Notes: generated from the sequence alone by a model not told the origin. DNA of 23,768 nt from a virus (IMGVR_UViG_3300030090_006193:1-23768), one strand, 5' to 3'; positions 8,686 through 23,768 are shown, numbered from the stretch's first letter. A program made the numbers and translations.

Positions 8686-11600
8686 ATGTCATCTAAAAAA
8701 TTCCGTTTTGTTTCGCCGGGAGTATTCCTTAACGAGATCGACAACTCAGCACTTCCAACACAAGCAAACGCACAAGGACCAGTTATTATTGGTAGATTTG
8801 AGAAAGGTCCAGGCATGCGCCCTGTTATCGTGGATTCGTTGTCAGAATTGGTTGAGACTTTTGGATACCCAATTGCTGGCCGCCAAGGAGGCGATGTTTG
8901 GCGTGATGGAAACCGAATCGGACCAACATATGCTGCTTTTGCCGCAGAGGCTTGGTTGAAGGCCGGTGTCGGACCTGCAACAATCGTCCGACTTATGGGC
9001 GTTGAGCACCCCGATAAAACCGCTGCTGGTCGCGCCGGGTGGGACACAGATTTGACGATTACAGCGATTCAAGGAACAAACGGTGGCGCCTATGGACTAT
9101 TTATTTGGGACTCGGGCTCTCAAGGTGCCGGTGTCGCCAATCCAACTGGCTCACACCCATTAGCAGCACCCCTTACCGGTGCTTTGGCAGCAGTTTGGTA
9201 TTTGACAACTGGTTCTATTGAGCTTGTTGGTCGCCCACGCGGCGATGTTGACGGCGAGGGATCATATTCCGGTACCGGTGTCACTCATACTAGTGTAGGT
9301 ACCTTCAGTTCTGGAACATGTGCTCTTTTCGAATCGGTTGGAGCTTCGCAAGAGTTCCGCGCAATCATTCGCGACGGTCAGAGCACTGTTGTAAAGGATA
9401 CCACGTTCAACTTCGACCGGTCGTCTGATCTTTATATTCGTAAAAAGTTTAACACAAACCCCCAGATGACAAACGGTACAATTACCCAGACTCAAAATAA
9501 AGAAACTTACTGGCTTGGTGAAACCTATGAAAGACACTTGGCTACATATGTCTCTGGTTCTGGAACATCTAAAAACCATGGTGCGATTCTTGGTATTATG
9601 AGTGGTAGCTCCACTGTTCTACATAAGAGTGATATGCGTATGGCATTTAGAGATGCTGAAACCGGTTGGTTCTTCTCGCAAGATATTACAACAAACAGTG
9701 GTTCCTTCCAACCGCAAGATCAGCAAAAATTATTCAAGCTTGTGGGTCTAAATTATGGAGAATGGATTCAAAACAACCTTAAAGTTTCTATTGAGGATAT
9801 TACATACTCTAAGAACTCGCAGACTGATTACGGTACATTCTCGGTTGTTTTGAGAAGACAAGATGACCATGATGGCGCTACACAGATTGTTGAAAGATAC
9901 ACCTCGTTAAGCTTAGATCCCAATTCAGCTAATTATATTGCAAGAAGAATTGGTAATGCTTACCAAGAGTGGAACGCAACCGAACTTAGGTATATCTACC
10001 ATGGTGAATATGAAAACCTTTCGCGCTACATACGTGTTGAAATGGATGAAGATGTTCACGCTGGTATCACCGATGCAGAATATCTACCATTTGGCTTCTT
10101 TGGGCCATTAAGAGAGGTTGGATTCTCAGTGTTTAGTGGTTCTAGATCTGTTCATAAGTTTGGAGCTACGACCCTTGACGAAACTTCGCTAACAGATGCA
10201 TCTCACAATCCAAAAGTTTATGCTCGCGGAAACGATGATATCCCCCGTTCTTTGGCAGATCCTAACCAAGCTGGCGCAGGTAGTGTTACATTTGGTATCC
10301 CTGGAATTTCCGGCAAGGATGTGTTTATTAATGTTGGCCATGGAGGTGCCGGAGGAGCAGTCGCCCATAAATCCGGCTCTTGCCCATTCACAGGATCGGT
10401 TATTTTCCCAACAATCGCGTTGAGAGCAACTGCTTCCACAACTGATGAATATTTTGGATACGATTCCACCCGAGCCGGCGCTACAGTAACAATCTTCGAT
10501 GAAAGCAATATTGACGTGCTTCGCGCCAAGCCAGCAGGCGAAACTCAAAACCCAACATCTGCAGGAGCAGTTGCCGGCGGAGGTGTTGAAATTTCTTGCT
10601 TCTTCACCTTAGATGATGTTCGCGTCTCAGGAAGCGGCCAAGGATATTACACATCTGGTTCTAGACAGGTTAACTCTAATGATGATACTGCCAAGTCTGT
10701 TGATTTGCACTCTGCAACCGCTATGAGTGGTACATACAAGCAGGTTCTTGACAAGGGCTTCGATAGGTTCACTGCTCCATTCTATGGAGGTTACGATGGC
10801 CTTAATATTAGAGAATCTGAGCCGTTTAGAAACTCGCAGTTTGATTCTTCAGAAAGCAGACTGGACCAGTATGCATTCCACACTATGGAAAGAGCAATCC
10901 AAGCTGTTGCAGATCCTGAAGTAGTTGAGTGTAACTTGATGGTCATGCCTGGAATTACAAACGAAACAATTACTGGTAAATTGATTAGTGCCTGTGAGGA
11001 TCGTGCTGATGCATTGGCAATTATTGACCTCAAGGGCGCCTATAAGCCATTCACTGAAAGCACCGAATCCGATGCTGCAAGAATTGGCAATGTCACTACA
11101 ACAATCAGTAATCTTAATAACAGACAACTTAGCACCAGCTACGGTTGTGCATACTACCCTTGGGTTCAGATGCGCGATAGTAACAGCAGTAGATTACTAT
11201 ATATTCCGCCCTCTATTGTTGCACTAGGAACCTTTGCTAGCTCTGAAAACAAGAGTGCGGTTTGGTTCGCCCCTGCGGGCTTCCAACGCGGTGGATTAGG
11301 AGGCGGCGCCGCAGGCGTAGCAATTACTGGGGTTCGCGAAAGATTGACTTCTAAGCAAAGAGATCAGCTATATGAAGCTAATGTCAACCCAATTGCATCT
11401 TTCCCATCAGAAGGAATTGTGGTGTTCGGTCAAAAGACCCTTCAGCTCACCCCGTCTGCCTTGGATAGAATTAATGTTCGCCGTCTGATGATTTTCATTA
11501 AGAAAGAAATCTCTGTCATTGCAAACGAAATCTTATTCGACCAAAATGTGTCGGCTACGTGGACTCGTTTCAAGAGCAAGGCAGTGCCTTTCTTAGAGGA

Positions 11601-11781
11601 AGTCAAGGCTGGATTGGGGCTAACAGACTTCAAGGTTATACTTGATACTACAACTACAACCCCAGATCTTGTAGACCGAAATATTATGTATGCTAAAATA
11701 TTCTTGAAGCCGGCTCGTGCAATTGAGTTTATTGCAATCGACTTTATGATTACTAATACCGGTGCTGCATTTGACGATTAA
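8686..11781 (+). CDS. Contractile tail sheath protein (T4 gp18-like), enlarged
   Basis: A 1031-residue protein forming the contractile outer tube of the tail. The N-terminus is typical of sheath proteins: FVSPGVFLNEIDNSALPTQ, then GPVIIGRFEKGPG, then SELVETFGYP, then AFAAEAWLKAGVGPATIVRL. The C-terminal core is also clear: INVRRLMIFIKKEISVIANE, FDQNVSATWTRFKSKAVPFLEEVKAGLGL, then ARAIEFIAIDFMIT. An upstream block has VMPGITNETITGKLISACEDRADALAIID and PPSIVALGTFASSENKSAVWFAPAG. T4 gp18 has 659 residues. The ~370 extra lie in the middle and are Gly/Ser/Thr-rich beta segments that probably decorate the outside of the sheath. AAGGAG at 8670-8675 sets the start. As expected for an abundant protein, codon choice is close to that of the capsid gene. 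Confidence 0.96.
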   Translation: MSSKKFRFVSPGVFLNEIDNSALPTQANAQGPVIIGRFEKGPGMRPVIVDSLSELVETFGYPIAGRQGGDVWRDGNRIGPTYAAFAAEAWLKAGVGPATIVRLMGVEHPDKTAAGRAGWDTDLTITAIQGTNGGAYGLFIWDSGSQGAGVANPTGSHPLAAPLTGALAAVWYLTTGSIELVGRPRGDVDGEGSYSGTGVTHTSVGTFSSGTCALFESVGASQEFRAIIRDGQSTVVKDTTFNFDRSSDLYIRKKFNTNPQMTNGTITQTQNKETYWLGETYERHLATYVSGSGTSKNHGAILGIMSGSSTVLHKSDMRMAFRDAETGWFFSQDITTNSGSFQPQDQQKLFKLVGLNYGEWIQNNLKVSIEDITYSKNSQTDYGTFSVVLRRQDDHDGATQIVERYTSLSLDPNSANYIARRIGNAYQEWNATELRYIYHGEYENLSRYIRVEMDEDVHAGITDAEYLPFGFFGPLREVGFSVFSGSRSVHKFGATTLDETSLTDASHNPKVYARGNDDIPRSLADPNQAGAGSVTFGIPGISGKDVFINVGHGGAGGAVAHKSGSCPFTGSVIFPTIALRATASTTDEYFGYDSTRAGATVTIFDESNIDVLRAKPAGETQNPTSAGAVAGGGVEISCFFTLDDVRVSGSGQGYYTSGSRQVNSNDDTAKSVDLHSATAMSGTYKQVLDKGFDRFTAPFYGGYDGLNIRESEPFRNSQFDSSESRLDQYAFHTMERAIQAVADPEVVECNLMVMPGITNETITGKLISACEDRADALAIIDLKGAYKPFTESTESDAARIGNVTTTISNLNNRQLSTSYGCAYYPWVQMRDSNSSRLLYIPPSIVALGTFASSENKSAVWFAPAGFQRGGLGGGAAGVAITGVRERLTSKQRDQLYEANVNPIASFPSEGIVVFGQKTLQLTPSALDRINVRRLMIFIKKEISVIANEILFDQNVSATWTRFKSKAVPFLEEVKAGLGLTDFKVILDTTTTTPDLVDRNIMYAKIFLKPARAIEFIAIDFMITNTGAAFDD

Positions 11782-21248: not shown

Positions 21249-22730
21249 ATGCCAAGTGATAACGAAATAAGAAAATCCGTTGCTAGCGGAGTATATTCAA
21301 CGAATAAAGAAAAAAAACTAAGTAGGATTTATAAAGGTAGAACATATTATAAACAAAAAAACTTGGCACCGCGCGGCAGTCAATTTAGAAAGGCTATAGA
21401 TGATTATTATAATACGCCTGATGCAATTGATTTATATTATGAAAAGCCAATGTACGGCAGGGTTGATCAAAATAACGACTTTGTATACCCCAGAAACAAC
21501 AAAATGGCCGATGTACAATCTATAGAACGAATATCTGAAGGCAATAAACATGTTATGGTTTTAGATTTCGTTGCAAAAGCATTTAAAGACATGTCTGCTA
21601 AAATTGCTAAGATGGCCAGGGCGGGTAGTTTAAGTATGGACGGAAAACTTTTGCCTGGAGGCAAATTCGAACCGGCTAAAGGATATGTTGACATAGCAAT
21701 TGGACAGAACGCTTTTTTAGATATTTTTATTGATAGATATAATAATCAAATATTAGTTAATAGACGGACATCCTTACAAGAAAAAAATAAAATAACTAAT
21801 ATTCAAGTTTATTATGAAAAAATGATAGGCTACATTGAACTTACAAATTTTAAAATTACCAAGTCTGGTCGGTTAGGAAGCTCTAGAGGTGGAATACAAA
21901 ATACTGGATTAGCCATAGAGGTAGCTGAAGTAGAGTACGGAGACGATGTGGTAAATCTTAGCGAGTTTATATATGGTGATCAAAACTTTACCAAATACAG
22001 ACATCTAGCCAGAGAATATGGATTTGCGATAGATAAGAATGCACCATATAGATTGATTGCAGACTTAGGATCGCCCGTCATGGAAGATTATATGGCCATG
22101 TATGGTACAAATATAGATATGCTGTTTAAAACTCATTATCGTCTGGCATCGGCAGGCGACATTCAAGAATTGAGAAATGTAATTTTAAATGGTTATAATA
22201 ATTTTGCAAGCTCTAATAAGATTATGAGAGATATAAAATGTAAAGTATATCATGATTCAATACACAAAGCCGCAGCCTCTTCGACTTTTTGCCCTATAGA
22301 AGATATAAACGTTATAACAGTATCGACCATCTCACAAAGGGAAACAGAAACAATGGCTACAATGGTAAAAAAACTGCCTTTGTCGATGTGGTATCAAGCG
22401 TATTTTCGCATTAGACACACAGAGTGCGGGAGCCCATTTGATGAGCCAGAAAAAAACAGACACTTAATAAATATAGAACAAATGATGGAAGTTGTTGACA
22501 AGGGCGAAGTAGTACGTTATATTAATAGGGTACTTAAACCATACATGGTAGACACATTGAGTCAGCAAGTAGCCACAATTGATGATGCCGCCAGGACAAC
22601 AGCCTCTCCTGGCTCTAACGGAGCCTCTGCGCCTTCTGGCGGCTCTTCGGGCGGCTATACAAGCTCGGGAGGAACATCTGGAGGTTCCGCCGGCGGTGGC
22701 TCCGGCGGTGGCGGTGGCGGGGGGTACTAG
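21249..22730 (+). CDS. Baseplate-region structural protein, function unknown, with Gly/Ser tail
   Basis: A 493-residue protein beginning 2 bases after the hub-like stop, with GGAGGG at 21238-21243. The N-terminal part is basic (KLSRIYKGRTYYKQKN). The middle contains GKFEPAKGYVDIAIGQNAFLDIFIDRYN and YRLIADLGSPVMEDYM, then HYRLASAGDIQELRNVILNGYNNF. The late part has WYQAYFRIRHTECGSPFDEPEKN and a helix reaching about 450. The last ~45 residues are nearly all Gly, Ser, Thr and Ala (SGGYTSSGGTSGGSAGGGSG...). I believe homologs occur in uncultured marine T4-like phages in this position but do not know their role. The flexible tail recalls linkers in exposed virion proteins. Base composition is more AT-rich than in the capsid and sheath genes. 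The stop codon overlaps the GTG of the polymerase gene. Confidence 0.65.
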   Translation: MPSDNEIRKSVASGVYSTNKEKKLSRIYKGRTYYKQKNLAPRGSQFRKAIDDYYNTPDAIDLYYEKPMYGRVDQNNDFVYPRNNKMADVQSIERISEGNKHVMVLDFVAKAFKDMSAKIAKMARAGSLSMDGKLLPGGKFEPAKGYVDIAIGQNAFLDIFIDRYNNQILVNRRTSLQEKNKITNIQVYYEKMIGYIELTNFKITKSGRLGSSRGGIQNTGLAIEVAEVEYGDDVVNLSEFIYGDQNFTKYRHLAREYGFAIDKNAPYRLIADLGSPVMEDYMAMYGTNIDMLFKTHYRLASAGDIQELRNVILNGYNNFASSNKIMRDIKCKVYHDSIHKAAASSTFCPIEDINVITVSTISQRETETMATMVKKLPLSMWYQAYFRIRHTECGSPFDEPEKNRHLINIEQMMEVVDKGEVVRYINRVLKPYMVDTLSQQVATIDDAARTTASPGSNGASAPSGGSSGGYTSSGGTSGGSAGGGSGGGGGGGY

Positions 22731-23768
22731 TGCCTTTTCAAGCATTAGATAACAAAGGTTCGTGTGTAGGAGTGTATGATCAAGGCCGTCTGGTATTTGA
22801 TGAATTGCCGGAAACCCTATCATGTCACACATGGAATTATTCACAATTTTTAAAAGACCGGGATATTGAATATGCCAGTCTTTATTGTGGCAAAACATTA
22901 GAGCAAGCTTGTCCTGAACACTACGAGGCCGAACTACAATTAACTTCTGACAAACTAAAAGCATTTTTGAAATCTCTAAGGACAGCTAAAATAGATTTAA
23001 ATGAAAACTGTTTTTATGACTTGGTACCAGAGCGTTTTTTACTTGAATATTGCGATGTAAAAAATAAAATAACACAGCACGTTATAAACAATTATGAAAA
23101 GCCTAAAAACTACGATTTTTTATTAGATATGACAAAAGTTATTGAAGAGATTAAAACGCAAAAACTAACAATAAATCGCAAGGCGTTGATCCCATCAGCA
23201 CATAAATTTAAAACAAGACAATTTATGAAAAAAATACTGCGTACTGAACCTTATATTGATTATAAACTATTTGGAACTAAAACAGGGCGCTTGACAACTA
23301 GAAAAGGAACATTTCCAATATTAACACTTGACAAGCAGCATCGTTGTGTGTTAGAACCTACAAACGACTGGTTTGTAGAGCTTGATTTTAACGCAGCAGA
23401 GTTAAGAACTATGTTAGCGTTGTCAGGACAAAAACAACCACAAGAAGATATCCACAAGTGGAACATAAATAACGTGTTTAAACAAAATATTACTAGAGAC
23501 GAAGCTAAAACAAGAATTTTTGCTTGGCTTTATGGATCGGAAAAAGAGAGTAAGCGCCTATCTACTACAGATGCTAAAAAAATACTTAGACAAACGTACC
23601 AAAGAGAGAGAATTATTAGCGAGTATTGGACCGGCTCACATGTCAGAACACGATTCAATCGGACCATTCCTAGCGATAACCATCATGCTCTCTCTTATAT
23701 TATTCAAAGTAGTTGTGTCGATAACGTCAATAGGCAACTCATCAAGCTCCACGATAGAGTCGCTAATC
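22730..23768 (+). CDS. Family A DNA polymerase, N-terminal 346 codons (3' end outside the window), no exonuclease domain visible
   Basis: A template-directed DNA polymerase of the Pol I fold. Visible motifs are TGR at 185-187 (KTGRLTT). Motif A is DFNAAELR at 219-226, with catalytic Asp219 and Glu224. DIHKWN lies downstream, and motif B RDEAKTRIFAWLYG spans 256-269, with the R-x3-K-x3-F-x3-YG spacing intact (R256, K260, F264, Y268). The Asn-Phe-Gly of the usual motif B is Ile-Phe-Ala. Motif C (HDE) should fall just beyond the window. Only ~185 residues precede TGR, against ~147 from the start of the polymerase domain in E. coli Pol I. There is thus no room for a ~200-residue 3'-5' exonuclease domain, and no DxE exonuclease motif is seen. 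The GTG start overlaps the preceding TAG (TAGTG); an in-frame GTG at 22772 is an alternative. Confidence 0.88.
   Translation, partial: MPFQALDNKGSCVGVYDQGRLVFDELPETLSCHTWNYSQFLKDRDIEYASLYCGKTLEQACPEHYEAELQLTSDKLKAFLKSLRTAKIDLNENCFYDLVPERFLLEYCDVKNKITQHVINNYEKPKNYDFLLDMTKVIEEIKTQKLTINRKALIPSAHKFKTRQFMKKILRTEPYIDYKLFGTKTGRLTTRKGTFPILTLDKQHRCVLEPTNDWFVELDFNAAELRTMLALSGQKQPQEDIHKWNINNVFKQNITRDEAKTRIFAWLYGSEKESKRLSTTDAKKILRQTYQRERIISEYWTGSHVRTRFNRTIPSDNHHALSYIIQSSCVDNVNRQLIKLHDRVAN

Follow-up and report, generated by a model that had tools for sequence, protein, structure and literature searches.

Which polymerase copies the genome of a T4-like phage that carries a family A DNA polymerase gene directly behind its tail genes, and why would an enzyme without proofreading be kept while the replicase is swapped? 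The question is raised by the window, the whole stretch of viral DNA analysed here (23,768 nt), whose contig ends inside the polymerase gene (polA). This gene resembles that of T4 gp43 in belonging to a phage with gp23/gp20/gp17-type structural genes, but gp43 is a family B enzyme with a built-in exonuclease, whereas the window gene belongs to the PF00476 family. It is tempting to read this as a replacement; however, a missing gp43 and a family A gene need not mean that gp43 was replaced by that gene.

The polymerase reading frame begins with GTG and runs for 346 codons, still open at the contig end. It matched DNA_pol_A (PF00476; E 7.6e-8) with 32.1 bits, just under the gathering cut-off of 34.3, for a divergent protein truncated by the contig end, and it matched the PHROG 17 'DNA polymerase' profile (E 2.5e-14). 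A phmmer search of the window protein against PDB gave no useful match; a profile of the polymerase family was needed instead, and this matched Taq Pol I (E 4.9e-11). Motif A reads VELDFNAAELR, and the motif B codons for R, K and Y, read from the DNA, start at 23495, 23507 and 23531, respectively. These profile matches and legible motifs bear out the sequence-only reading, an earlier account of the window, which had proposed an exonuclease-less family A polymerase joined to the last tail gene by a TAGTG overlap. The overlap is present, and motif C, which that reading wanted read, is HDS in L002, an 84%-identical relative with a protein of 403 aa. The same −1 overlap between the tail gene (c49) and polA was found in 7 distinct sequences including the window; the others range from −4 to +119 nt. 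Pfam and PHROG profiles gave no match of note for c49.

Table 1. Features of the window discussed in the text, with positions counted from its first nucleotide.
Feature	Position	Strand	Basis
gp23-type major capsid protein, 631 aa	2841..4736	+	PF07068, E 4e-74; used to place the phage
c49 (493 aa, C-terminus rich in Gly), last gene of the tail/baseplate block	21249..22730	+	upstream of polA in almost all related contigs
Predicted promoter of sigma70 type within c49, TTGACA-17-TATATT, 236 nt ahead of the polymerase start	22495..22523	+	consensus match
TAGTG stop/start overlap, TAG of the baseplate gene with GTG of the polymerase	22728..22732	+	direct reading
Family A DNA polymerase fitting the divPolA1 type, N-terminal ~346 of ~403 residues	22730..23768	+	ORF 22730-23767, PF00476, PHROG 17; contig stops short of motif C
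TGR motif, residues 185-187	23282..23290	+	direct reading; invariant in 62/62 sequences
Motif A catalytic Asp, D219 (equivalent of E. coli Pol I D705)	23384..23386	+	direct reading; invariant in 62/62
Motif B R256, K260, F264, Y268 (equivalents of R754/K758/F762/Y766)	23495..23533	+	R, K, Y invariant in 62/62; F in 57/62

An IMG/VR scan returned 104 relatives, of which 80 (L002–L081; 44–84% identity) were kept, and a profile scan of IMG/VR found at least 594 loci. In an annotated phage collection every match was below 60% identity, about 24–30% among the matches listed, with partial protein coverage. The 61 distinct full-length relatives (392–418 aa) are catalytically intact and have the same gene start, and the in-frame exonuclease that was sought upstream of it is absent. 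TGR, the motif A Asp, R/K/Y of motif B and HD of motif C are invariant in the sequences that reach them, with each catalytic residue conserved in 61–62 of 62. Between the window and L002, dN was 0.096 and dS 1.10, and the dN/dS of 0.087 indicates strong purifying selection on the small polymerase. Our impression from the IMG sample set and the published GOV and immuto relatives is of a mostly marine habitat of the hosts.

The AlphaFold model built from the L002 protein and its relatives, 35 sequences altogether, had a pLDDT of 92.7 and a pTM of 0.90. Its best PDB matches by Foldseek were Klenow, KlenTaq and Pol nu (E 2.7e-14, TM about 0.6). By our own reading of the alignment, about 36 residues lead from the first thumb/polymerase helices to TGR, compared with about 120 in Klenow; this short segment and the small protein size leave too little space for both an exonuclease domain and a full thumb. 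The sequence-only reading had allowed for a thumb but no exonuclease before TGR. The lack of an exonuclease domain stands, but the simple thumb has to be exchanged for a shortened one preceded by an apparent remnant of the exonuclease region. Residues 1–120 occupy the place of the exonuclease domain, and the small PolAs of LR756508 and immuto (MW353176.1) have a longer N-terminus with a Pol I exonuclease-like start, lacking the DTE motif. Because of this position and these intermediates, we infer that residues ~1–120 of the window polymerase are a shrunken remnant of the exonuclease region; hhalign did not align the N-terminus reliably with the exonuclease domain of Klenow. Compared with bacterial Pol I, the window clade shares the palm/fingers fold, motifs A/B/C and a nearby 5'-3' exonuclease gene, but it is without an active 3'-5' exonuclease domain, has a short thumb and is about 14–18% identical in structure alignments.

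A divergent family A polymerase named divPolA1 has been described in 14 phages (Flavobacterium phage vB_FspM_immuto and its relatives, 155–190 kb); its exonuclease is inactivated and its thumb truncated, it stands beside a regular family A, B or C polymerase, replication genes follow it, and the regular DNAP lies close to chaperonin genes (Yutin et al., 2024; PMC11348598). Like the divPolA1 of immuto, the enzyme of the window clade is small, keeps the palm residues (motif A Asp, motif B R/K/Y, motif C HD), has lost the exonuclease and has a truncated thumb, and it is followed by replication genes in the same order (SSB, RecA/UvsX, 5'-3' exonuclease, gp41-type helicase). Related contigs carry a DnaE as the regular polymerase, again with chaperonins near it, the window itself ending in polA. 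Profile searches connected the family to immuto (2.5e-15), LR756508 (4.8e-20) and Mel-JY01 (6.7e-11), and hhalign gave 1.6e-18. In a family A tree of 39 rows, a check proposed with the sequence-only reading, the window clade (98/99) joined the immuto-type small PolAs, apart from 8 full-length PolAs (100/99; long branches flagged). The window gene fits the divPolA1 type on comparison with the sequence of immuto and the descriptions of the other published members. Members of the window clade differ from the immuto type in their shorter N-terminus (mostly 392–405 aa overall versus 408–452) and in keeping TGR, the motif B Arg and the motif C His-Asp, which are changed in immuto, Mel-JY01 and LR756508. 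The clade also differs in being paired with DnaE in all contigs reaching the locus, and in an FtsZ/TubZ-fold gene right after the polymerase.

RM378, which is distantly related to T4 and encodes its exonuclease (p024) and polymerase (p092) separately, had been put forward as a precedent for the window. The split is real, but p092 is a family B enzyme (motifs DLDFTSLYPSV and SHTDSIF; PF00136, 1.2e-34), and no family A match was found in RM378. A split polymerase of the RM378 type was also rejected for the window, whose gene is family A and in whose relatives no separate DnaQ or Pol I exonuclease was found.

The gene order c49, polA, c51, gp32-like SSB, UvsX, flap exonuclease and gp41 helicase is fixed over the stretch that each contig covers, both in the first 80 contigs and in the 70 from the second scan (some 140), with SSB or helicase undetected in a few. 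SSB was identified by PF08804 and the flap exonuclease (FEN) by PF02739, and UvsX and gp41 match T4. The adjoining c51 (~280 aa; L002:1292-2161, L004:11215-12051, G001:139009-139845) is present in nearly all related contigs. Pfam had no match to it, and neither PHROG nor the PDB sequences gave a useful one; its AlphaFold model (pLDDT 93.0, pTM 0.91) matched FtsZ (E 6.3e-13) and TubZ (E 7.1e-13) in Foldseek with TM 0.65–0.71. The first loop, GLGxAGC, is conserved and the tubulin signature GGGTGTG is degenerate. Judged from the model, c51 would be a tubulin-like gene within the replication operon of a T4-like phage. In immuto, no c51-sized gene is annotated between the small PolA and SSB.

Sigma70-like promoters (score at least 10.5) were predicted upstream of polA in 49% of 59 distinct 120-nt regions, compared with 2% of shuffles. 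Such promoters are also frequent before SSB and GroEL, not frequent before portal or c49, and rare before the capsid gene. Many of them, like that of the window (Table 1), sit within the 3' end of c49. Over the last 240 nt the rate was 72% of 54 distinct sequences versus 19% after synonymous codon shuffling, these sequences being related and not independent events; for an internal stretch of c49 it was 7% versus 10% shuffled. T4-type late promoters (TATAAATA) showed no consistent pattern in the four large contigs G001–G004. The sequence-only reading held that the placement of polA ties replication to the late structural block. This is not supported: across the clade, and in the cultured phages immuto and Mel-JY01, the gene lies at the boundary of tail and replication genes, and the predicted sigma70-like promoter ahead of it speaks against a need for transcription from the late structural genes.

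To see the rest of the genome, G001–G004 (155–204 kb) were read gene by gene. G001 encodes, 18.6 kb downstream of polA, a 1151-aa family C polymerase III alpha (DnaE) with PHP, alpha NTPase, finger and HHH domains (PHROG 405, E 3e-230; Taq Pol III alpha, E 1e-97). DnaE (PF07733, ~1150 aa) was found in 12 of 50 related records, with a further truncated copy at a contig end, at 11.6–22.2 kb past polA, and a second set added 7 viral contigs (G051, G052, G053, G054, G056, G057, G058) and the MAG record G050. The strict viral count is 12 complete, 1 truncated and 7 more, that is, 20, and none of the contigs reaching at least 22.2 kb past polA is without DnaE. The catalytic Asps are invariant in 12 of 12, as are nine PHP metal ligands (H13, H15, D23, H48, E78, H134, C185, D267, H269), whose make-up of 5 His, 3 Asp/Glu and 1 Cys is the same as in the zinc centre of Mtb DnaE1. 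Of the nine ligands in the M. tuberculosis centre, five have been lost in E. coli (PMC5636811). With all nine intact, the phage enzyme resembles PHP-proofreading DnaE of the Mtb DnaE1 type, and proofreading by it is predicted. Pairwise identity is 62–89% for DnaE versus 40% upwards (median 49%) for polA. GroES is encoded just upstream and GroEL downstream of DnaE (GroES-like c74 and GroEL c82 near DnaE in G001, G002 and G004). Around DnaE the clade thus carries GroEL/GroES together with IMP dehydrogenase, a ClpP-like protease and ribonucleotide reductase (G001:161616-162650, 164353-164994, 167511-169079; G002:148474-150444).

Searches for gp43 and for a separate exonuclease, both proposed with the sequence-only reading, found neither in 13 related contigs: there was no family B gene (PF00136) in these contigs of up to 204 kb, and no 3'-5' exonuclease of Pol I type (PF01612) or DnaQ type (PF00929), though a more divergent one could escape. 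One of the 13, G002 (203.9 kb), repeats its first 100 nt within its last 2 kb, which suggests a complete genome. The idea of a family A enzyme in place of gp43 thus stands as to the missing gp43 but not as to a sole replacement, given the family C DnaE downstream in the 20 viral contigs. Replacement of gp43 by the small polymerase alone was dropped as the default, DnaE being present in all related contigs that reach its locus. A search for a clamp, a clamp loader and a beta-clamp motif found none, so the processivity of DnaE could be accounted for only if it borrows host factors. A DnaG-like primase candidate was weakly detected.

Related phages differ in the replicase that accompanies the small enzyme. 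In immuto, the tail genes are followed by the small PolA (1-1326) and the replication genes, and a 777-aa exo-plus PolA (DTET) lies at 37854-40187 beside GroES/GroEL. Of the two family A polymerases of immuto, the larger is thus exo-plus and the small one exo-dead. The Microcystis phage Mel-JY01 (PP395634.1) carries the small PolA at 50397-51623, RecA, FEN, gp41 and, at 73198, PolB; its small polymerase bears no annotation beyond 'hypothetical protein'. By phage, the replicases are of family B in RM378 and Mel-JY01, family A in immuto, family B plus DnaE-like in LR756508, and DnaE plus family A in LR756511. The large uncultured LR756508 (484 kb; L193, L196, L203, L204) has PolB pieces, a 574-aa DnaE-like protein without PHP in frame and a small PolA. 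One record, L216 (CP070664.1, a candidate division WOR-3 MAG), contains the c49-polA-c51-SSB-UvsX array of the clade at 48% identity and a second DnaE-like gene far off. It possibly consists of binned or joined phage pieces, or is a host hint, and was left unused for host assignment.

From these results we favour, as the probable account, a small accessory divPolA1 polymerase that works beside a DnaE replicase and fills gaps together with the flap exonuclease. An intact DnaE with an intact PHP site in the relatives makes the small enzyme a second polymerase. It would synthesize DNA by the normal two-metal palm active site, and the missing proofreading exonuclease and short thumb would make it distributive and error-prone. 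Bulk replication would most likely fall to the family C DnaE encoded 12–22 kb downstream, which may proofread through its own PHP domain. From an operon with gp32-like SSB, UvsX, a separate 5'-3' flap exonuclease and gp41 helicase, the small polymerase would most likely fill short gaps in Okazaki-fragment maturation and recombination-dependent replication, so that polymerase and flap exonuclease together could do the work of Pol I from two genes. Several points count against this account: since the window contig ends inside polA, DnaE, SSB and FEN are unseen in the window genome itself, which we infer from the relatives to carry DnaE; divPolA1 has a more conserved replication-gene context than DnaE; and the searches brought no clamp or clamp loader and only a weak primase candidate.

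The conserved context also speaks for a different arrangement, in which the main replicase, in place of gp43, is the small family A enzyme and DnaE is an extra, for example for the lagging strand or repair. Yutin et al. took the conserved context of divPolA1 as pointing to a role in replication and found that of the regular DNAP less telling (PMC11348598). The lack of family B genes in the 13 contigs agrees with such a replicase, and so does the position of polA, which in almost all contigs heads an operon with SSB, UvsX, FEN and helicase. We nevertheless regard it as unlikely, though worth keeping in mind. The small polymerase has no proofreading and a shortened thumb, whereas DnaE is complete, has intact PHP and polymerase sites and is more strongly conserved than polA; moreover, related phages pair the small enzyme with a full PolA or PolB, so that the replicase changes and the small enzyme stays.

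A polymerase specialised in translesion synthesis or recombination repair alongside UvsX and SSB, instead of one for Okazaki-fragment maturation, seems improbable to us. It would suit an enzyme with no exonuclease, gp32-like SSB and UvsX/RecA as neighbours and the translesion enzyme Pol nu among its structural matches, but Pol nu is on a par with Klenow and KlenTaq rather than ahead of them, motif B has the standard R, K, F and Y, and the operon includes a flap exonuclease and a replicative helicase. Very improbable is a family A-derived RNA polymerase or primer-making enzyme, a role raised by Yutin et al. for divPolA2, the other divergent group (PMC11348598), since here the Foldseek matches are DNA polymerases and a DnaG-like primase candidate is present. 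The small polymerase is no decayed relic, and the chance that such decay or a chimeric join at ~22730 lies behind its divergence and sub-threshold Pfam score is negligible, in view of the dN/dS, the intact catalytic residues of the 61 full-length relatives and the recurrence of the c49-polA-c51 junction in nearly every related contig.

Compared with the divPolA1 report, what is new is the scale, a two-polymerase system known from 14 phage genomes turning out to be widespread (at least 594 loci in IMG/VR alone), the pairing in the window clade with a bacterial-type DnaE that has its own predicted PHP proofreading site, the embedded predicted promoter and the adjoining FtsZ/TubZ-fold protein. 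A bolder proposal, to which we would give only a small chance, is that the small exonuclease-less polymerase, and not the replicase, may be the fixed core of the replisome, around which family A, B or C replicases are freely swapped, its partners being the flap exonuclease and, in the window clade, the linked FtsZ/TubZ-fold protein, which would organise or position the replicating DNA.

The structural block of the window is of T4 type (gp23 capsid, sheath, tube and T4_baseplate family). The nearest gp23 records were LR756508, immuto, Mel-JY01, LR756511 and RM378, all above cyanophages, and the terminase and portal clusters scored higher to RM378 than to T4. The window capsid would accordingly be placed in the Far-T4 neighbourhood (PMC4360716), by this ranking of nearest records. 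The capsid protein (631 aa) and the tail sheath (1031 aa, 8686-11781) are longer than in T4, and the match of the capsid protein to the gp23 profile falls into two stretches that leave the middle part unmatched. A conserved PIN + PhoH protein is encoded upstream of the structural block (G001:36775-38109); PhoH is found near structural genes in Far-T4 phages, too (PMC4360716).
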